From a virus, in the IMG/VR virus record IMGVR_UViG_3300022874_000045, positions 1-25,169 of that record: a stretch of 25,169 bases of DNA; one strand, given 5' to 3'. Under the pieces are notes generated by a model that had not been told where the DNA came from, did not search any database, and was given only the letters and a program-made list of their open reading frames with translations. Of this stretch, positions 10,410-19,646 are shown piece after piece (position 1 is the stretch's first letter; each line of letters begins with the position of its first letter). A program made the position numbers and the translations under genes.

Positions 10410-10985
10410 CTATCGCTCCCATGGCGGTTTAGTTTTGGTTGATGACGTAGTTGCTGGTTTGATGGTTTTTTTTGCCTGAGGCTTTGCCTTTGTGGTCCCA
10501 CTGTCTGGCTCAGTACCAGCAGTCGCTTCTTTTTCTTCTTTTTCTTCTTCTGCTTCTACTTCCTGATCCGGGTTAGCTGGCTTGTACGTCCGGACTTCGT
10601 TCTCAGCTTCACGATCACCGTCACCAGCCTTAACTTTGAGCTTGACGATAATTATTTTCTCGATCAGTTCCTGGCTGTCGGTAATCGCAGCCAAGCCAAG
10701 GGCCTGCCCAAGAGCGGCCAGTTGCTTAATGCCAATCTCAACGCATTTCGAATTTGGGTTGCTAAGGTTAATGTTATCAAAGACTTTCCGGCCCTCATAT
10801 TCTTCTCCAATAACAGAAAGCTGAAGTTTGAGATATGATCCATCGCCTTTTTTAGTCTCTTTTACTTCTGCTTTCTCGATGAACATGTGGTATTCACCAG
10901 GAGGCAAAGGTTTAAAGTCTTCTGTCTTTTCATGCTGGCCTGGCTCGAAAGCGTTCCCACCATAACTATCTGAAATATCGCCCAT
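10410..10985 (-). CDS. DUF669-type phage protein, probable single-strand DNA-binding partner
   Basis: A 191-aa protein. Residues 20-120 follow the DUF669 pattern: PLPPGEYHMFIEKAEVKETK, YLKLQLSVIGEEYEGRKVFD, INLSNPN, and IGIKQLAALGQALGL. These are beta-rich phage proteins encoded beside RecA-like ATPases and exonucleases, thought to act as SSB-like partners. From about residue 130 the chain is a low-complexity tail, first acidic (EVEAEEEKEEKE), then Lys/Pro/Thr-rich, ending KPPWER. Charged flexible tails recruiting partners are typical of SSB-like proteins. AAGGAG stands before the ATG. It shares the N-terminal MGDIS with the nuclease two genes downstream, probably by chance. The SSB-like role is inferred from family and context. 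Confidence 0.8.
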   Translation of the reverse strand: MGDISDSYGGNAFEPGQHEKTEDFKPLPPGEYHMFIEKAEVKETKKGDGSYLKLQLSVIGEEYEGRKVFDNINLSNPNSKCVEIGIKQLAALGQALGLAAITDSQELIEKIIIVKLKVKAGDGDREAENEVRTYKPANPDQEVEAEEEKEEKEATAGTEPDSGTTKAKPQAKKTIKPATTSSTKTKPPWER

Positions 10986-11009: not shown

Positions 11010-12812
11010 TTATTTAACTACCTTAGTCAATGCTTTCATAAATTCATTCCAGTCAAGAGGCAGTTCATATGGCAATCGGCCATAAGGGCCACGACCACCA
11101 CCCGGATGAGCTGGTCTTTTCTGGGTGAACAGAAATCGGAATCCACCAGTTACGTCAATACCGCGTTTCTTTTCCTGTCCAAACCCTTTGTCTTCTTTCT
11201 GCACCTTAACTTTAGTGTTGCAAAACAGAATTACATCTGCCCAACGAAAAAGCATATTTACGGCTTTCTCGTTAATGTCAAGAATGTACTGATCGTAGCT
11301 GTCACCGGATGGATCGTCAAAGCGTTTAACCTTAACATGTCCGATAATAATACTGGACATCCCTTTGTGGCTTCTCAGGGCGTCCAACCCTTCTGTGATC
11401 TGTCTCCAATAGTTCACTGATTCGGTGTATCCTTTGCCATACCCACCGCCAACGGCCTCAATATTCTTTACGTTTGCAGCGTCGCAAACAGCGTTCCAGA
11501 CAAGAGGCTCCATCGCGCTTGCGCTGTCTAAAACTACGGTTCTGTGCTCATGTTCTTCGGAGTAAAGGGATCCAAGTGCTTCGATAATATCTTCAAATTT
11601 ATTGCAAACTGGAAACTTTGGGATTTCCAAGTCGTCTGCTCCCTCTTCACCTTTCATCGATAATAGGATAGGAGCGTTCAAGCCGGTCTTGAATATTTTA
11701 TTGTCCTTAAATTGCGTTCCGCAGGAAAAGGTCGTGTTGTGTGTTACGACCAAATCTCGTCCCGCTAGATAGGTGTGAGAGGGTGAATCGACGGATATAC
11801 ATTTAACAGGGACGGACTTTACAGGTGTAACGGAGACGATAGCATCTTTATTGGCTTTCCTTCTGGAGTTTTTTGTTTTAAAGCAGTTAAACTTAAACTT
11901 TGAAAACCTAAAAGGATTTTCTTTCGGGAAAAATGCTACACGAAAATTGGGCCCACAATCTTTGCCATTAAGTTTTGCACGACATCTTGTAATAGATGCT
12001 TTGACCCCGAGAGATCGAAGCAGTTCGATAAATCCGTCACAGAGACACTCTTTGACCGTTGAGAATTCACACTGGCCTTTGTTGTTGTCGTAGCAACATC
12101 CGTCAGTATCCATGAGCCCAGCCAGCAAGCTTCTCCTGTCTTCTTCGGTACTTTCCCAAACTGAAGCATGGGGGATGTGCTTATTGCCTAGCAGGTTTCT
12201 GTTTCTTAGTTTTACTTTAAGACCTAAGATCGTAGAAGTCTTGCAGCCAGCAGTTTGGTATGGTTTACCAGTTGATCCCAAATTATTTCCAATTAGAGCG
12301 TCCCTGTCTGATATTGTTACTCGACCATCGCTAGAACTTCCATCTCCGAGCCAAACTCCCAAAACATATGGGTCAATGCCTATTACTGAAGTCTTCTTTA
12401 TCTTGAGCGGGAGCGTGATTGGGACTGCATGATTGTAACGATCTCCGTTGGGAGGTCTAAGGGTCTTAAGGATTTGGCCTGTAGTCAACACTCGTTCTTT
12501 ATTGTCCCGTATCGACCTTGTGAGCCATTGATGCTCTTTATCGGCTATCAATGAGGCCCCGCTCTTAAACTTCACTTCATAGCAGGTTCGTTTTTCCATG
12601 ATACCCGTCACATCGGTAACGCGTACCATGCTGCCGTCTCTATCAAAGACATAATCCCCTCTTTTAATAAATTTCAGTGGTTGCCATCCCCTGTTTGTAA
12701 AAATTGGGGTATTGTAGTCGAGAGCCTTCCCGATCTTTTCAACACCTAGAACCAGGATCCTTGGTGCTCTTAAAATTGTTTCTTTTTTAATACTGTTAAG
12801 GTCAAACGTCAT
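11010..12812 (-). CDS. RecA-like (Sak4/AAA_24 type) ATPase interrupted by an intein
   Basis: The 600-aa precursor holds a 270-aa ATPase split by a 330-aa intein. Residues 1-29 end in LVLGVEKIGK and residue 360 onward continues TTFSCGTQF. Joining them restores a Walker A P-loop, GVEKIGKTTF. The Walker B strand is RTVVLDSASAM (D429). Further conserved parts are SSIIIGHVKVKRF and DVILFCNTK, typical of the phage Sak4-like/AAA_24 ATPases that help strand annealing or exchange by SSB-like proteins. Because the insertion lies inside the P-loop, the ATPase cannot work until the intein splices out. GGAAGGAG lies upstream and the gene overlaps the 73-aa gene by 11 bases. It is the second gene after the probable operon promoter. 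Sak4 is the best fit; a general AAA ATPase is the alternative. Confidence 0.88.
   Translation of the reverse strand: MTFDLNSIKKETILRAPRILVLGVEKIGKALDYNTPIFTNRGWQPLKFIKRGDYVFDRDGSMVRVTDVTGIMEKRTCYEVKFKSGASLIADKEHQWLTRSIRDNKERVLTTGQILKTLRPPNGDRYNHAVPITLPLKIKKTSVIGIDPYVLGVWLGDGSSSDGRVTISDRDALIGNNLGSTGKPYQTAGCKTSTILGLKVKLRNRNLLGNKHIPHASVWESTEEDRRSLLAGLMDTDGCCYDNNKGQCEFSTVKECLCDGFIELLRSLGVKASITRCRAKLNGKDCGPNFRVAFFPKENPFRFSKFKFNCFKTKNSRRKANKDAIVSVTPVKSVPVKCISVDSPSHTYLAGRDLVVTHNTTFSCGTQFKDNKIFKTGLNAPILLSMKGEEGADDLEIPKFPVCNKFEDIIEALGSLYSEEHEHRTVVLDSASAMEPLVWNAVCDAANVKNIEAVGGGYGKGYTESVNYWRQITEGLDALRSHKGMSSIIIGHVKVKRFDDPSGDSYDQYILDINEKAVNMLFRWADVILFCNTKVKVQKEDKGFGQEKKRGIDVTGGFRFLFTQKRPAHPGGGRGPYGRLPYELPLDWNEFMKALTKVVK
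11736..12725 (-). mobile_element. Class 3 intein with LAGLIDADG homing endonuclease
   Basis: Residues 30-359 of the ATPase precursor. The intein starts at Ala30 (ALDYNTPIFTNRGW) and ends VVTHN, followed by Thr360. It lacks the usual Cys1/Ser1 nucleophile. It has instead the class 3 WCT set: Trp96 in block B (DKEHQW), Cys338 in block F (VKCISV), and Thr357 just before the terminal His358-Asn359. In class 3 the block F Cys starts splicing in place of residue 1. The block B position that is usually Thr is Asp91 here. Two LAGLIDADG-type motifs, VLGVWLGDG (150-158) and LLAGLMDTDG (229-238), each keep an acidic residue, so the homing endonuclease could be active. Its target would be the empty P-loop codon site, GK before TT. 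Confidence 0.88.
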
Positions 12813-13023: not shown

Positions 13024-13042
13024 ACATCACCTCCAAAAATTC

Positions 13043-13113
13043 GGCATAAAAAAAGACCGAAATCATAAAGCGGTGTGTGGCCTGCTTCGTAGAAATCGGT
13101 CTTTTTTTATGCC
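13043..13113 (-). terminator. Bidirectional intrinsic terminator-like hairpin
   Basis: Perfect 18-bp inverted arms GGCATAAAAAAAGACCGA (13043-13060) and TCGGTCTTTTTTTATGCC (13096-13113) enclose a 35-base loop. Within each arm a GC-containing stem (AGACCGA/TCGGTCT) is flanked by A7/T7, so on either strand a stem is followed by seven T residues. It stands after the giant virion gene and 20 bases before the first replication gene, so it can stop read-through from the structural genes or act as an attenuator. The loop is longer than usual for a terminator. Confidence 0.75.
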
Positions 13114-13166
13114 TATTGTTTGTTTGATCATTAAATATCCCCACACGGAATCAAAGTTTAAGCCCG

Positions 13167-13199: not shown

Positions 13200-16100
13200 T
13201 TATTTTTCATTAAAAATTTTATTTAGATGTCGCATTCTCTTCCAATAACTTTTAGTACCTACCTTCCTGCCTGATCGCCTACCGTCAAGAGTAAATATCC
13301 AGCGATTCCTGAAAGCAGCTGCAACAAATTTAAAATCATCCTCATACTGTGGGTTGTTATGAATCGCGTCAAGAAGCTCTTCTTTCCGAGCCGGTGTAAT
13401 GTTTGGGTTTGTTAGCTGCCATGCAGCGTTCCGGATGATCTGGACATCGCCTTTTACCTGGTCGTCAACTTGTGCCTGAGTTAATTTCAGCTCATAATAC
13501 ATCGCAAGAGATGTCGGGTCCGGATCAATTTCGTTTTTACGTTTCTTTATCAGCTGGTCCCATGCCTGTGCTCTTTCTTCTTTACTGGAGATAGAAAACA
13601 CATTAACTGCCTGGTCGAATGATAGCCTTTTAAACGATGCTTTAAACGGAGACATTTTGGCCGTGGCTTTGATGTTTTTCTGCTGTCTGGCCGTAAATCC
13701 CTCGTAATCCTCTGCAGGGATTATTTTTCCTTTCCGGATGCTATTGATTATCTTTCTGCGACGATCTGATTCCTCAGCGTCCGCATGAGAGATGTTACTG
13801 CGACCTCCTTTTTCTCGGTTGTAGTCAATCATCCTCTTCTGAGCCGGTGATCTCGTGATATATGCGGGAGCCGGCGATATTCCGGACGCTCCTATGATCC
13901 ATGAGACGGACGTTTTCTCTCCGTTCTCATGTAGCTTCATACCGTTTCTAACAGAAAATGGCATGAACATGTTTTCAACAAAATAAAGCGATCCTTGCGC
14001 TAGTCTGGTTAAAGGATCACCTTCTTTGATCTGCCGCCCAAAATAATCTTCATTAGTGAGGAGGTCAACTGCAGTACCCCACAAGGGGTTCAGTTTATGT
14101 GTGAGCGTCTTCCATGGCTGTGTCATCCACGCCACTATGTCTTTAGAATAATGTGGGTTAGAAAGCCGCTCAGGGCTTCCGTCGGTATTCTTGCGGCCAG
14201 TTTTTGGAAAGTAAAGGTCCTTTGGTTCTTCTGGCGGTTCTCCAGTAAAAAGATATTGAAGCAACGCGCCCTGAATGGCGTAAGAGATCCCAGCTCCGAA
14301 GGCATAACCCATTCTGCGAGTGACAACATCCTGATCGTTGCCAATCCTTCTCCAGAACGTCGCAGCGTCCACTGCTCCGCCTCCAAACTCCCTTATCGAT
14401 CCCAACGTCCAACCAGGAGCACGAAAGGCCAGCATAACGATCTCCTTGACCGTCCTGTTCCAGTTCAGGTTATCATACCGGAGTTGACCCATCCTGTTAT
14501 CAACATTATCCCATGCACTGGCAAGTTCTGACTGTATCCGGATATCGTCCCAATCCTTTTTATTGGCCTGTTCATAGACATCGGAAGCCATATGGTAAAA
14601 GATCCCTAATTTAAGGCGCGGTACCTCCATCTGCATGATCGGAATAGAAAGTCCTTCGATCAGAGCCATGGAAGCATGAATCGGTGCTGCCATCGCACCC
14701 TTAACTTTGCCAGAAGCATCTTTGCTAAATTTAACATCTCTCAGGGCCTTAAGTAAATTGCTCCCGGCATTATTCCTGTATGCTGCATCCATGGTCGCAC
14801 TACCACCGCCATCAATTACGGCCTGAACAATTTTTCTCATAAAAGGATCTTCAATCTCGCTAAGTTCCTGCCCCATGGCCTTCATTACTTTGTCGCCGGT
14901 AAGATAATCTGAAACCGGAGCTTTCCATGATTTCTTCACCCATTCGTCGATTGCACCACTAACATCTCCCCTTGAGAGTTTCTGCAGGCCAAGACCAATG
15001 TGCGTATTTATACTGTCTGATGCCACATTAATTCCGTGAAACGCGCTTAAGCCGTGACTTGCCATCAGGGTAACATTCCGCAATTTGCGAAGGCCGTCAT
15101 AGATGTTTCTGGTGATGAGACTTGGGCTCGAGCCAAGGCCCGGGGAAAGATGTCTGTTAAGAATTGTTGCGGCTTCTTTAGGTACGGCCCACTTCCCAAT
15201 TTCAAGAACTCCCGGTTGAGTATGTGTTGACGATCGGGTCCCGAGAACTACCGATCTGTCAAGATTCAGCAGTGGTTTTACAATATCGTTATCATTTAAG
15301 AAGGTTTTCCATGCTGCAGAGATCTTCGGGGCAACCTTTGCCATTTTCTCCGGAGCTGCAAGCCATGCTTCAAGAATTACAGCTTCCTTCTCTTCTTTTT
15401 TACGGCGGTACCTTTCCCTCGTTTTCCCAAGATCTCCCAGGGTCTCGTCTCTGAGATCAGCTAGGGCCTGAAATTCTTTCCGGATCGCAGCACGATTAGC
15501 AGTTTGCTCGAATTTTATGGGCTGTCCTTCACGTTTACCGCTTTCATGTACGCGGCCGATCGTATGGTCGCCATGCAGCATGTAATTAAATAAATCGTAC
15601 TGGTTTCCGATCTGATGGCCTATTTCATGAGCCAGCACAGATGTTGGTCCTGCGAATCGAGTCTCTATTTTGTTTTGACCGGGATATGACAAACCCCATA
15701 CTTGACCGCGCATTTTTGCTACACGTTCATGGGAAACGCCCATTCTGGTCGCTACGCCCATGAGTTGGTCCACAAGAAGCTTGTCATATGCTTCAGGGAG
15801 GGTAAGCTCAGGTGTCACCTTAACTTCCATATCCGGATCGTCAATAAACTCCCATCCGGCCTTTTTATAATTCTTCTCTAATGAAGACGGAACGAATACA
15901 GCCATGCCCAGCTCTTTAAAATCCTGTTTGATCCTCTTGCCGGCAACGAAACGATTCATCTCATGAAGTCTTAAAATTGTCATCTCAACCGGATTGTAAT
16001 GGGCCAACTCAAGGCCAGCATCAAGGCCGTCTTTTAACGTGAGATATTTTCTTTTATGAAGGAAGCCTTTCGGGACCAGTCTTCTTTTAGACAGTAATCC

Positions 16101-19100
16101 GGAAATCACGTCAGAGGCATGTTCTGGTCTTTTAAATAAGTGAGGGAAATAATTTTCAATATAATCTTCTAGTGCACCAAACTCCTGAACCCTTTTACGG
16201 CCCTTGTCCAACATTTCACGCAGGAGTGCTGCAGCGTCATCCAGTTCTGTTGTTACTTGAGGACGCGCACCTTTTGGATCCTCCATCTTGTCAATAAAAT
16301 CAACGATGTCCTCCGGAGCCATCCAGTGAAACTGTTTGCCCGTCTCATGAAGCTTGGCCCGTGTCATCTCGTCAAGCTGAGCGGCTTCTGCGGTTCTTTT
16401 TCTTTTAACTAATGCCGCGACTTTTCCAATAACCCCACGTTTATGAGGCATAAGGATCTCCATTACATTGTCGGCAACTTCCCCTGCAGTCATTTTTGCC
16501 TGGGCAACTTTAGTCAGGATCTCGTTTGAAGGTTCATTCTGGGAATAACTGTCATCATCTGAAACTGCGACGTTTGCGTTTCCGGAGGATCCACCGCCTT
16601 TTTTCTTCTTGTCGTCGGGCAGGTCAGTCTGCTTACCCTGTTTCTTTTTCCTTACTTCGTCAAACTCGAAATCTTCGCCTTTTGCGTCTTTCTTGGCCTG
16701 TTCCAAATCTGCTGCAGCGTCGCCATCAGTTTCGGTCTTAAACATTTTAGGCTGAACAGGCTTTGCCTTCTTTTTCTTACCCTTGTTTTTTTCTTTTTGC
16801 TGTTCGAGAATAAGAGGCTCTTTGGTGATATCTTCTCCGGCCTCTATTTTTTTATTTAGAGCGTCCTGCCCTTCCTGTAAGCTTTTGTCGAGATCCTCAA
16901 TGGTAGGTTTTTTCTTTTCCTTGGAAAGAATATCTGCAGTCTTTACCAACATGTGTCCGATGTGCTCATGTTCTGTGTTGTTGCCAGTCTTCGGGTCCTC
17001 CATTGACCAGCGGCCATCTTCTTTCTTGGTCCCCCTAAACCTGTCATTGATGTGGAGCCCTCTTCCGCCCATAACCTGTCTGATGTCAAGATCGTCAAAC
17101 ATGGCAATCTTTTCTAGCTCAGTTTCTGTCAGATTAGGCTCTTTTTTTTCGTCCTTAAGCTCATAGTCTTCCCGTTTTTTGTCCGGAGCTACTTCTTCAC
17201 CCGCAGGCTTTTTAACAGCTTCTTGCTTAAGTTTATCAATCTCCCGCGCTTTTTTAGCAGATTCAGCTTGCAAGAATTCCTCTTCGAAGTTGTCTTCTTT
17301 GCCCTGCTCAACCTCTTTTTCTATTTCAGCTTTCCGTTTGTCTTCACCCTCAAATGGTTTCTGCTCTTTTCTGTTGTCAATTTTTTCGTGATGTTTAAGC
17401 CTCTTGAGCTGTCGTTCTTTTATTGCCAGTTGTGTCTTTAAGTCCCTTTCTTTTTCTTGCTGTCCAGCGAACCATTTTATAGTTTCGTCGGCGGCTTGAT
17501 CTGCCTCTTCTTTGGAAAGCCCAGCTTCGATGCTATCTCGGAGAACTTCTTCCCGTATGCTTTCTTCCTGAGATCTCTCAGCTTTGCTAATTGCTGTTCG
17601 TTCAATGCCTTCATCTGTTAGCTCCTTACTAATATAATTTTCATACTCCTGTTGTTGAATATCGGCCTCATCAGATGCCTTCTGTGCGATGTCTCCAATT
17701 GCAGAGACTTCTGTTCCGGAATAAGATTCCTCCATTTTCTTAAAAAAGTCATCGATGTCAGCTTTTCCATGCTCATCTGTCTTGATATATCCTGCTTCGG
17801 CCAGAGATTCTGCCATATGGTCAATACTCATTCCACCTTTTTTCCGGAGAACAGGTCTTCCAACCATTTTGGTGTTAATTCGTTTATCTTTTGACATGTC
17901 AGAGATTATGGATCCCCATTGTCCATGAACATCATCAAAGTCTAAACCGCCGACCTTTGAAATGTGCTGCAGCATAGTGTCGGGTTTCTTAACCTTTAAG
18001 CCTTTACTTTTAATTTTGGATCCGATTTTGTTTCCCGGATCCTCTTTCTGCCTTTTTTCAATTGCAGAGATCAATTCAGTTTTTTTCATGTTAGTTTTAA
18101 GGCCAAGCCCTTTGGCCAGTGCTCTAATTTCTTTAAATGGTTTCGCCTGCAGGTCAGAGTTTGGTAATACTTTGTCAAGCTGATCTTCCAGATCTGCCGG
18201 TTTTTTGTCTTGCACGGCTTCTTGCACGCCCTGTGGAAGTTGCGTCTCATCACCGGCAGGTTTTATCTTTTCCTGCACTTCAGCTACAGTTTTATCCTCT
18301 TCCTTCGCTTGCACGGCTTGCACTTCAGGTGTAATTTTCTCACTCCCACCAACTCCCACCTCCTCTGTCGTGGGAGTAGTTTCTTCCTCTTCTGACGCCT
18401 CAGAAACCAACCCTCTCGCATTGTCAGCAAAAGCCGATCGATCTTCTTTAGACATCTCCGGGAGACCGTATTTTGCAAAAACCTTCCGGGATGGTTTTTC
18501 TTCACGGGCCAACTCTATTGCTTCCCCTGGGTTTTCTGAAACCCATGTCGCTGTCCCAAGCTCGGTCTTTAACACTTCTTTCTCAATTTCACGGCCTAAA
18601 GCGATTTCTGTGTCCTCTTTTGACTTAGAGGCGCGATGGAGCATGTTTTTCGTAGTTTCTTTGTCAAGGCCATATGTGTTTGCAAGGGAATCAGTGAAAG
18701 CATCACGTTCTTTTAGGTTTTTTTGACCTTTCCATCCTTGATACGTCCCGGTACCACCAACAGCAAGGAAGGTCTGCATTATCGTGTCAATAGCCGTGTC
18801 CCAAAGTGCCTTTGGTTCCAAGGCGTTCGGGTCAATATCGCTTATTTTCCTATTTGCGCTATGAAGCCCTTCTGTGATTAACTCTTCCGGGGCCTCACGC
18901 CCAAGACTTTTCCCGATGTCCTTCATTACCTGCTTAAAGCCTGCTCTTATGATTTGTTTTCCGCCGCCAAACATTGACTCGAAGCCGCCCCAGCCAAGTT
19001 TTTGAAATATGCTGGCAACGGCTCCCTCGATTACTGCAGCCCGACCGGCATAAAGTAAACGATCTGAACCTTCAAGACCTTTGTCTGTAGCAGTAGTTAA

Positions 19101-19646
19101 AGCATCATTTCCCTCAAAAAGAGAAAAACCGGCAATGATCCCATAAGGACCAGCTCCAGCAAGTCCTGCAGCGGTAATCACAGAGTCAGCTGCACCCCTG
19201 ACCCATCCGACACCTCTTGCGCCTTTTCTACCAAGTTGTTCTATATCTTTCTGCCGAACGCCCTCCTGAAAAGTCTGGTTGGACCGAATCATCTCATCTG
19301 CAAGCTCAGGATTGAAAGGCCGATTAGTAAGTGCGGCAACCTTTGAGATTGTTCCTAAGCCAAGAGCTGAAACCTGCCTCCCGACAAAATTATCAGGAAT
19401 TAAAGAGATGTCTCTTTCCGTCCGTGCCTGGTCGAGTTTACGATCGTTTCCCTCAATCCGCATATCAGCTGCAGCAGACGCATTTTCAGCTATTTGTGCT
19501 TTCAGGATCGCATTCTCAAAGCCAACAAACTGTTCGGTGTATTTCTTTTTGTCAGCGTCAGACTCTCCGGCTACAAGATCCTCAGCTGTCAAGCCCATGT
19601 CCAGAGACTGCCGTACAAAGTCTTCAGAGAAGTTCTCTTGTCTCAT
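13200..19646 (-). CDS. Giant virion-associated polyvalent protein with HExxH metalloprotease-like motif
   Basis: This 2148-aa protein resembles the very large, probably DNA-ejection, proteins of short-tailed phages. Regions seen: N-terminal helical part with a Gly/Ala-rich, possibly membrane-active stretch (147-175); acidic low-complexity segments (about 420-480); a SAP/Rho-N-like motif FKEIRALAKGLGL at 504; a long Lys/Glu-rich coiled-coil zone (about 690-1060); a domain with ENYFPHLF and HYNPVEMTILRLHEMNRF (about 1105-1245); AHEIGHQIG with H1340, E1341 and H1344, a zinc metalloprotease motif; and a C-terminal domain of large-polyvalent-protein type (about 1500-1870) with hydrophobic MGYAFGAGISYAIQGALLQY. 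Such proteins may enter the host with the DNA, as T7 gp16 does. It starts two bases after the preceding stop. Proteolysis, self-processing or host attack are all open possibilities. Confidence 0.75.
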   Translation of the reverse strand: MRQENFSEDFVRQSLDMGLTAEDLVAGESDADKKKYTEQFVGFENAILKAQIAENASAAADMRIEGNDRKLDQARTERDISLIPDNFVGRQVSALGLGTISKVAALTNRPFNPELADEMIRSNQTFQEGVRQKDIEQLGRKGARGVGWVRGAADSVITAAGLAGAGPYGIIAGFSLFEGNDALTTATDKGLEGSDRLLYAGRAAVIEGAVASIFQKLGWGGFESMFGGGKQIIRAGFKQVMKDIGKSLGREAPEELITEGLHSANRKISDIDPNALEPKALWDTAIDTIMQTFLAVGGTGTYQGWKGQKNLKERDAFTDSLANTYGLDKETTKNMLHRASKSKEDTEIALGREIEKEVLKTELGTATWVSENPGEAIELAREEKPSRKVFAKYGLPEMSKEDRSAFADNARGLVSEASEEEETTPTTEEVGVGGSEKITPEVQAVQAKEEDKTVAEVQEKIKPAGDETQLPQGVQEAVQDKKPADLEDQLDKVLPNSDLQAKPFKEIRALAKGLGLKTNMKKTELISAIEKRQKEDPGNKIGSKIKSKGLKVKKPDTMLQHISKVGGLDFDDVHGQWGSIISDMSKDKRINTKMVGRPVLRKKGGMSIDHMAESLAEAGYIKTDEHGKADIDDFFKKMEESYSGTEVSAIGDIAQKASDEADIQQQEYENYISKELTDEGIERTAISKAERSQEESIREEVLRDSIEAGLSKEEADQAADETIKWFAGQQEKERDLKTQLAIKERQLKRLKHHEKIDNRKEQKPFEGEDKRKAEIEKEVEQGKEDNFEEEFLQAESAKKAREIDKLKQEAVKKPAGEEVAPDKKREDYELKDEKKEPNLTETELEKIAMFDDLDIRQVMGGRGLHINDRFRGTKKEDGRWSMEDPKTGNNTEHEHIGHMLVKTADILSKEKKKPTIEDLDKSLQEGQDALNKKIEAGEDITKEPLILEQQKEKNKGKKKKAKPVQPKMFKTETDGDAAADLEQAKKDAKGEDFEFDEVRKKKQGKQTDLPDDKKKKGGGSSGNANVAVSDDDSYSQNEPSNEILTKVAQAKMTAGEVADNVMEILMPHKRGVIGKVAALVKRKRTAEAAQLDEMTRAKLHETGKQFHWMAPEDIVDFIDKMEDPKGARPQVTTELDDAAALLREMLDKGRKRVQEFGALEDYIENYFPHLFKRPEHASDVISGLLSKRRLVPKGFLHKRKYLTLKDGLDAGLELAHYNPVEMTILRLHEMNRFVAGKRIKQDFKELGMAVFVPSSLEKNYKKAGWEFIDDPDMEVKVTPELTLPEAYDKLLVDQLMGVATRMGVSHERVAKMRGQVWGLSYPGQNKIETRFAGPTSVLAHEIGHQIGNQYDLFNYMLHGDHTIGRVHESGKREGQPIKFEQTANRAAIRKEFQALADLRDETLGDLGKTRERYRRKKEEKEAVILEAWLAAPEKMAKVAPKISAAWKTFLNDNDIVKPLLNLDRSVVLGTRSSTHTQPGVLEIGKWAVPKEAATILNRHLSPGLGSSPSLITRNIYDGLRKLRNVTLMASHGLSAFHGINVASDSINTHIGLGLQKLSRGDVSGAIDEWVKKSWKAPVSDYLTGDKVMKAMGQELSEIEDPFMRKIVQAVIDGGGSATMDAAYRNNAGSNLLKALRDVKFSKDASGKVKGAMAAPIHASMALIEGLSIPIMQMEVPRLKLGIFYHMASDVYEQANKKDWDDIRIQSELASAWDNVDNRMGQLRYDNLNWNRTVKEIVMLAFRAPGWTLGSIREFGGGAVDAATFWRRIGNDQDVVTRRMGYAFGAGISYAIQGALLQYLFTGEPPEEPKDLYFPKTGRKNTDGSPERLSNPHYSKDIVAWMTQPWKTLTHKLNPLWGTAVDLLTNEDYFGRQIKEGDPLTRLAQGSLYFVENMFMPFSVRNGMKLHENGEKTSVSWIIGASGISPAPAYITRSPAQKRMIDYNREKGGRSNISHADAEESDRRRKIINSIRKGKIIPAEDYEGFTARQQKNIKATAKMSPFKASFKRLSFDQAVNVFSISSKEERAQAWDQLIKKRKNEIDPDPTSLAMYYELKLTQAQVDDQVKGDVQIIRNAAWQLTNPNITPARKEELLDAIHNNPQYEDDFKFVAAAFRNRWIFTLDGRRSGRKVGTKSYWKRMRHLNKIFNEK

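Follow-up and report, generated by a model that had tools for sequence, protein, structure and literature searches.

What interrupts the ATP-binding loop of a phage recombination ATPase, and could the gene still yield an intact enzyme? This question is raised by a viral stretch of 25,169 nucleotides (positions 1 to 25,169 of IMG/VR record IMGVR_UViG_3300022874_000045, here called the window), in which a gene for a Sak4-like ATPase is split within its phosphate-binding loop (P-loop) by a long in-frame insert. Sequence comparison and a predicted fold together indicate that the insert is very probably a class 3 intein that can splice and that includes a homing endonuclease, and this reading is developed below. 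The junctions read GVEKIGK/ALDYNTP on the N-terminal side and LVVTHN/TTFSCG on the C-terminal side, so that the Walker A motif GVEKIGK/TT is divided between Lys29 and Thr360, and removal of the insert would leave a protein of 270 residues (1-29 joined to 360-600). A GGAAGGAG-type sequence precedes the ATG of the precursor upstream.

The identity of the host protein is read from the whole precursor and from the C-extein by itself. The whole precursor matches AAA_24 (E-value 5.2e-26) and the Sak4-like family PHROG 124 (1.5e-21), and the C-extein alone matches AAA_24 (1.8e-26) and PHROG 124, 'Sak4-like ssDNA annealing protein' (8.7e-22). The spliced sequence aligns with seven intein-free homologs in which the P-loop is unbroken throughout; one of them (L007), 37% identical, reads straight through GIGK/TTF, and the other six are from phages. 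Gly23, Gly28, Lys29, Thr95 and Asp99 are invariant in this eight-sequence extein alignment, with Walker A restored on splicing and the Walker B Asp present. The placement of the insertion inside the P-loop of a Sak4-like ATPase, as proposed by the first-pass annotation of this DNA, is thus borne out by the profile matches and by the continuity of the intein-free homologs at this point. One result counts against a Sak4-like assignment, namely the score of 21.9 bits with the NCBIfam model TIGR01618 (phage_P_loop), for which the cut-off is 138.75.

A terminase identity was considered as well, as would follow from the three best PHROG matches of the precursor (36964, 19299 and 15). It was rejected because PHROG 36964 and PHROG 15 cover almost only the intein (residues 21-363 and 14-251). 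Terminase domains of Pfam gave no match, either with the whole protein at an E-value of 1 or with the C-extein at 0.001. PHROG 19299 is itself a family of intein-containing Sak4-like proteins: the proteins of Lactococcus phages 949 and AM4 match it end to end (1556.6 and 1621.8 bits) and also match PHROG 124 and AAA_24, and the intein-free protein of phage AM1 matches it over its exteins.

The assignment to class 3 rests on residues, alignments and the predicted fold. The insert begins with Ala30, neither Cys nor Ser, carries His94, Trp96, Cys338 and the closing triplet Thr357-His358-Asn359, and is followed by Thr360 at the +1 position. Among class 3 inteins, exceptions with Ser or Cys at position 1 exist, and Cys at +1 is also possible. 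Published descriptions define the class by Trp B:12, Cys F:4 and Thr G:5, by the lack of a nucleophile at the first position and by a +1 residue that is usually Ser or Thr (PMC5222942, PMC5050341). Trp96, Cys338 and Thr357 align with this triplet in the solved inteins and in 91 of 93 aligned inteins, and no displacement from blocks B, F and G was seen. In searches of PDB chains with phmmer, DnaB inteins ranked highest (6rix, 5.6e-19; 6riy, 2e-18; 6bs8, 1.3e-17), and the wild-type class 1 intein gp41-1 reached only 0.085 against 0.0036 for its form engineered to carry the Trp-Cys-Thr set (6riz). The 6bs8 record is titled as a class 3 intein, and MchDnaB1 is named as class 3 in the literature (PMC7664689). 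An AlphaFold2 model of the intein, built from 57 aligned inteins, has a mean predicted local distance difference test score (pLDDT) of 92.3; its splicing domain superimposes on 6bs8 with a Z score of 22.6 and a root-mean-square deviation (rmsd) of 1.4 Å over 125 residues, as expected of a HINT fold. By sequence as well as by predicted fold, the solved proteins closest to the window intein are the Mycobacterium class 3 DnaB inteins. A model of the 600-residue precursor had pLDDT values below 50 over most of the extein and was not used. Both the class and the boundaries given by the first-pass annotation (Ala at the start, THN at the end, Thr next) hold, the latter exact to the base (Table 1).

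Table 1 Features of the intein-containing gene and its neighbours (window coordinates).
Feature	Position	Strand	Basis
Intein-containing precursor of Sak4-like (AAA_24) ATPase	11010..12812	minus	600-residue open reading frame, ATG start
N-extein, 29 residues, ending GVEKIGK	12726..12812	minus	Junction reading; alignment to intein-free relatives
Predicted class 3 intein, 330 residues, Ala1 to THN (precursor residues 30-359)	11736..12725	minus	Residues, alignments, predicted fold
C-extein, 241 residues plus stop, starting TTFSCG	11010..11735	minus	AAA_24 and PHROG 124 on C-extein alone
Block B Asp at B:7 (precursor residue 91)	12540..12542	minus	Residue reading
Trp B:12 (precursor residue 96), member of the Trp-Cys-Thr set; His B:10 two codons earlier	12525..12527	minus	Residue reading and alignment
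Cys F:4 (precursor residue 338), predicted nucleophile of the first splicing step	11799..11801	minus	Residue reading and alignment
End of block G, Thr-His-Asn (357-359), with Thr G:5 as the third member of the set and Asn predicted to cyclize	11736..11744	minus	Residue reading and alignment
LAGLIDADG motif 1, YVLGVWLGDG (intein residues 120-129)	12339..12368	minus	Conservation among 57 inteins
LAGLIDADG motif 2, LLAGLMDTDG (intein residues 200-209)	12099..12128	minus	Pfam; conservation among 57 inteins
DUF669/single-strand DNA-binding protein, 191 residues, next gene	10410..10985	minus	Pfam DUF669, 7e-19; PHROG 6015, 5.3e-31
Gp157/Mu Gam-like protein, 199 residues	9795..10394	minus	Pfam and PHROG matches
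Cas4-domain exonuclease, 439 residues	8476..9795	minus	PHROG 1990, 2.3e-95

The Asp in block B had been taken as a possible sign of an unusual catalytic pocket, a suggestion that was rejected. At position B:7 the 93 aligned inteins have Asp in 79 cases, Ser in seven, Asn in three, Cys in two, and His and Glu in one each, with Thr in none (two rows of this alignment are cut at the 5' end, and counts of Ala at position 1 are approximate where the alignment start is offset). The three solved DnaB inteins that were aligned have Asp as well. Because Asp prevails in both, the pocket of the window intein reads as an ordinary one for this set.

The endonuclease domain looks intact from its sequence, in line with the earlier description of both LAGLIDADG motifs. 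In the precursor the Pfam models Hom_end (7.8e-8) and LAGLIDADG_3 (1.2e-6) both score above their cut-offs, and the acidic residues of the motifs are kept. Among the 57 inteins, Trp125, Leu126, Gly127 and Gly129 of the first motif are invariant and Asp128 is found in at least 90%; Gly203, Asp206, Asp208 and Gly209 of the second motif are invariant, as is Lys182. The whole predicted chain matches PI-SceI, which comprises splicing and endonuclease domains, with a Z score of 28 and a deviation of 3.0-3.4 Å over 312-321 residues, a match that in the model corresponds to HINT plus a two-motif LAGLIDADG domain.

By analogy with the steps described for other class 3 inteins (PMC7664689, PMC5222942), we infer that Cys F:4 (Cys338), aided by His B:10 (His94) and Thr G:5 (Thr357), would attack the peptide bond between Lys29 and Ala30, after which the N-extein would be transferred to Thr+1 (Thr360). 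Cyclization of Asn359 would then release the intein and leave the 270-residue ATPase with an intact GVEKIGKTT P-loop. The LAGLIDADG domain of the freed intein would, again by analogy, cut intein-free alleles near the codons of the P-loop, into which the intein would then be copied by recombination. The same locus is present in five IMG/VR contigs, which over 5.0-7.8 kb share 98.8-100% identity with the window; the intein is identical in all five and the C-extein of three carries one substitution (11140). Two results weigh against a splicing and homing class 3 intein. The generic Pfam splicing model PF14890, which matched in six of 14 control genomes, found nothing on the window intein, and an extein-only scan of IMG/VR recovered the same five contigs and one distant relative and no empty allele of this phage.

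Other readings of the insert have to be set against these observations. Lack of an N-terminal nucleophile is common to classes 2 and 3 (PMC7664689), and it takes a mutant of Cys F:4, rather than the signature alone, to exclude a class 2 route (PMC5222942). Direct attack by Thr+1 is nevertheless extremely improbable here, given that the solved relatives nearest to the splicing domain are of class 3. It is also very unlikely that splicing has been lost and that the phage lives without this Sak4. The tree branch that leads to the window intein is a long one (1.65), as might be the case for a degenerating intein, but the signature residues are retained despite an identity of only 34-45% to 56 relatives, the frame is open across 330 codons, and the Walker and core residues of the extein are kept.

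Alternatively, the intein could be a domesticated rather than a purely selfish element, retained since slow or signal-dependent splicing (redox, zinc or single-stranded DNA) times the activity of Sak4. The intein divides the ATP-binding site in two, and both binding and annealing of single-stranded DNA by the Sak4 of HK620 are ATP-dependent (PMC5928155), so the unspliced precursor should be inactive. An intein in M. smegmatis DnaB has been presented, in the title of the paper, as 'Mycobacterial DnaB helicase intein as oxidative stress sensor' (PMC6195587), and all five matching contigs have retained the intein. On the other side, the endonuclease motifs look intact, as for a mobile element, and sister lactococcal phages have the homologous gene without an intein. 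Moreover, the Walker A mutant K30A of PA73 Sak4 showed a 1.7-fold loss and was still 2-fold above background in one assay (PMC5928155), and the earlier description of the intein as an obligatory switch on the enzyme is not supported; the authors of that study re-read the mutant as not decisive and suspected the ATP motifs to be necessary there too. Retention as a conditional switch is unlikely on balance, and any regulatory role of the window intein is speculative. A mobile class 3 intein that splices out of the Sak4-like ATPase is the reading preferred here.

The window gene is not the first Sak4-like host of an intein, as public phage records hold others at the same codon boundary. A scan of IMG/VR with a degenerate junction pattern matched at least 120 stretches, and one of the 80 loci read is a Sak4-like protein with an intein (L116: 694 residues; AAA_24, 2.8e-30; PHROG 124, 1.8e-35), which keeps the Trp-Cys-Thr set and is inserted at GVGK/TSF; most of the others encode one conserved GKALILDTP protein, which we take to be a prohead protease. 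With L116 as query, Lactococcus phages 949, LW81, AM4 and AM5, Bacteroides phage BS-TP3 and Dulem virus 38 were found, whose inteins lie at the same Lys/Thr or Lys/Ser boundary as that of the window. The host family of 949, AM4, BS-TP3 and L116 is given by profiles (AAA_24 above its cut-off and PHROG 124). Dulem virus 38 matches PHROG 124 (3.8e-16) and AAA_24 with 26.3 bits, slightly below the cut-off of 27, and the genes of AM5 and LW81 were assigned from alignment alone. Five of these inteins were compared with that of the window and are 27-31% identical to it. Those of BS-TP3, Dulem virus 38 and L116 likewise keep Trp, Cys and Thr, whereas in those of 949, AM4, AM5 and LW81 Trp B:12 is missing, and the latter three start with Cys. 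No description of a Sak4-like protein carrying an intein was found in the open-licence literature searched, outside which most subscription papers lie.

Lactococcal phages hold filled and empty alleles at the homologous codon. The 949 protein as query found 22 lactococcal records. In seven the match spans at least 80% of that protein (949 twice, AM4 twice, AM5, LW81 twice), and in the other 15 it spans 46-50% (AM1, AM2, AM3, AM8, AM9, AM11, AM12, phiL47, P1048, WRP3 and PMBT69, some twice); in AM1, P1048 and WRP3, the three read of the latter, the gene is continuous at SGK/[TS]SLF. Between the 949 extein and the AM1 protein, which matches AAA_24 at 4.2e-27, identity is 92.8%. Homing and its cost could therefore be tested with cultured phages. 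The inteins of 949 and AM4 are 84% identical, yet 949 has Ala1 where AM4, AM5 and LW81 have Cys1. All four (L015, 949; L230, AM4; L241, LW81; L242, AM5) retain Thr G:5 and the Cys of block F and have Ile in place of Trp B:12. 949 and AM4 form a natural pair for studying a shift of inteins between class 3 and class 1 chemistry. The window extein has about 12 additional residues after TTF (about 11690-11726, minus strand) compared with the seven intein-free homologs, and the 949 extein likewise has additional residues after the P-loop junction.

The intein-bearing Sak4-like genes are labelled as terminase, PhoH, AAA domain protein or hypothetical in their records, and 'Terminase large subunit' is applied to Sak4-like ATPases in PHROG 19299 and in the RefSeq genes of AM1, P1048 and WRP3 (L243-L245). 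This label may have arisen from similarity of the intein and then spread to intein-free sister genes, and the naming error seems systematic. 'DarB-like antirestriction', found in NC_047796 and ON809761 among others on intein-containing genes that are called helicase in sister records, is perhaps another intein-driven name. Terminase labels of this kind conceal recombinases and give phage annotations second terminases that are false, and relatives of the window intein, which are common in phages, make Sak4-type host genes easy to mislabel.

How common such inteins are was read from IMG/VR with the intein alignment, which matched at least 600 stretches, at least 587 of them encoding relatives of the window intein; the best 80 of the latter were read, two of which are cut at the 5' end. 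Lys precedes and Ser or Thr follows the intein in 72 of these 80 loci, and Gly-Lys precedes it in 62. Pfam profiles on 80 C-exteins (the window and 79 IMG/VR loci) matched TerL_ATPase in 27, Terminase_6N in 21, Terminase_3 in five, GpA_ATPase in four, AAA_25 in three, DnaB_C in two and MCM in one, with AAA_24 on the window only. Within this set it is the Sak4-like host that is unusual and not the intein, and the rarity earlier ascribed to class 3 does not hold for these relatives, nearly all of which keep the triplet where aligned.

The relationships among these inteins suggest that the P-loop of sak4 has likely been invaded repeatedly. The relatives most similar to the window intein include L030 (44-45% identity), and L030, L050 and L006, all among the most similar, have terminases as hosts by profile; the families of L006, L030, L050, L031, AM4, BS-TP3, Dulem virus 38 and AM1 were profiled and the labels used were upheld. 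In a tree of 61 full-length rows the window falls into a set of 50 rows (support 100/97) from which all the other Sak4 inteins are absent. A single origin of the six Sak4 inteins is rejected at full length, where forcing them into one group lowers the log-likelihood by 83 units (approximately unbiased test, p-AU 0.000845), and it is also disfavoured when 949 and AM4 are omitted (p-AU 0.00275). The rows were picked for their resemblance to an alignment that has the window intein at its head, and the large clade around this intein is therefore partly an effect of sampling; 38 of the 80 IMG/VR loci were omitted from the trees to limit their size, and the bootstrap of the full tree had not settled. 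Because the window intein is closer to phage terminase P-loop inteins than to other Sak4 inteins, it may have jumped into sak4 between the P-loop sites of different genes. Such a jump is called into question by the splicing domain alone (144 columns), with which one origin is not rejected (p-AU 0.08), and by the long end branch of the window row, which joins no small supported set at full length. An exchange of endonuclease domains could have contributed to the tree pattern. Perhaps the P-loop of sak4 is a recurrent home for separate class 3-type inteins since the host is the annealing recombinase of the phage, one precursor then giving endonuclease and recombinase in equal amounts and aiding its own homing; as a whole this is rather unlikely, and the joint supply of cutter and recombinase is speculative.

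The surroundings of the gene are consistent with its assignment. Judged from profile matches, the genes that follow sak4 form a recombination module of a single-strand DNA-binding protein, a Gam-like protein and an exonuclease (Table 1). A gene for a single-strand DNA-binding protein usually adjoins sak4 (PMC5928155), and in Klebsiella phage YX3973 the Sak4-like, Gam-like and single-strand DNA-binding protein genes are consecutive. On the other side lies a gene for a protein of 2148 residues (13200-19646) with a match to Rho_N; among phage records it has one relative, covering 4% of its length. The gap between this gene and sak4 contains an inverted repeat (13034-13122) with 27-nt arms that are 89% complementary and 35 nt apart, which could be a two-way terminator; a simple terminator scan found nothing at 13034-13122. 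In the 98.8% identical contig (L003) differences from the window fall into two clusters inside the 2148-residue gene (13413-14012 and 15213-15812) with hardly any elsewhere, as if short stretches had been exchanged. Close kin were also sought through the primase among phage records, and all 591 records found are below 60% identity. Scans of bacterial genomes gave 25 pattern matches for relatives of the whole precursor, none of them confirmed, and at least 592 for the extein alignment, with three distant intein-free relatives among the matches listed. No bacterial host was found in these scans.

With this locus, phage Sak4-like recombination ATPases are added to the hosts of P-loop inteins. Among the known systems nearest to it, the DnaB1 inteins of Mycobacterium smegmatis and M. 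chimaera (6bs8, 6rix, 6riy) share with the window intein the block B sequence ADxxHQW, which includes the Asp, as well as Cys in block F and the THN end, and are 38-39% identical to the window intein over 125-130 aligned residues (rmsd 1.4-1.9 Å). They are, however, mini-inteins in a DnaB helicase, whereas the window intein has an endonuclease domain and a Sak4-like host. Terminase P-loop inteins of phages, such as TerL1-a of mycobacteriophages (PMC5050341), L006 and that of PhatBacter, occupy the same Walker A Lys/Thr site, although their host is a packaging motor and not a recombination ATPase. Like that of the window, they are full-length and carry an endonuclease, with 38% (L006) and 37% (PhatBacter) identity to it. 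The exonuclease intein of C1-cluster mycobacteriophages (Breeniome gene 213, presumably corresponding to Catera gp206) likewise combines the class 3 triplet with an endonuclease and is 36% identical over the whole intein, but differs from that of the window by starting with Ser1 and by having no P-loop sequence before it.

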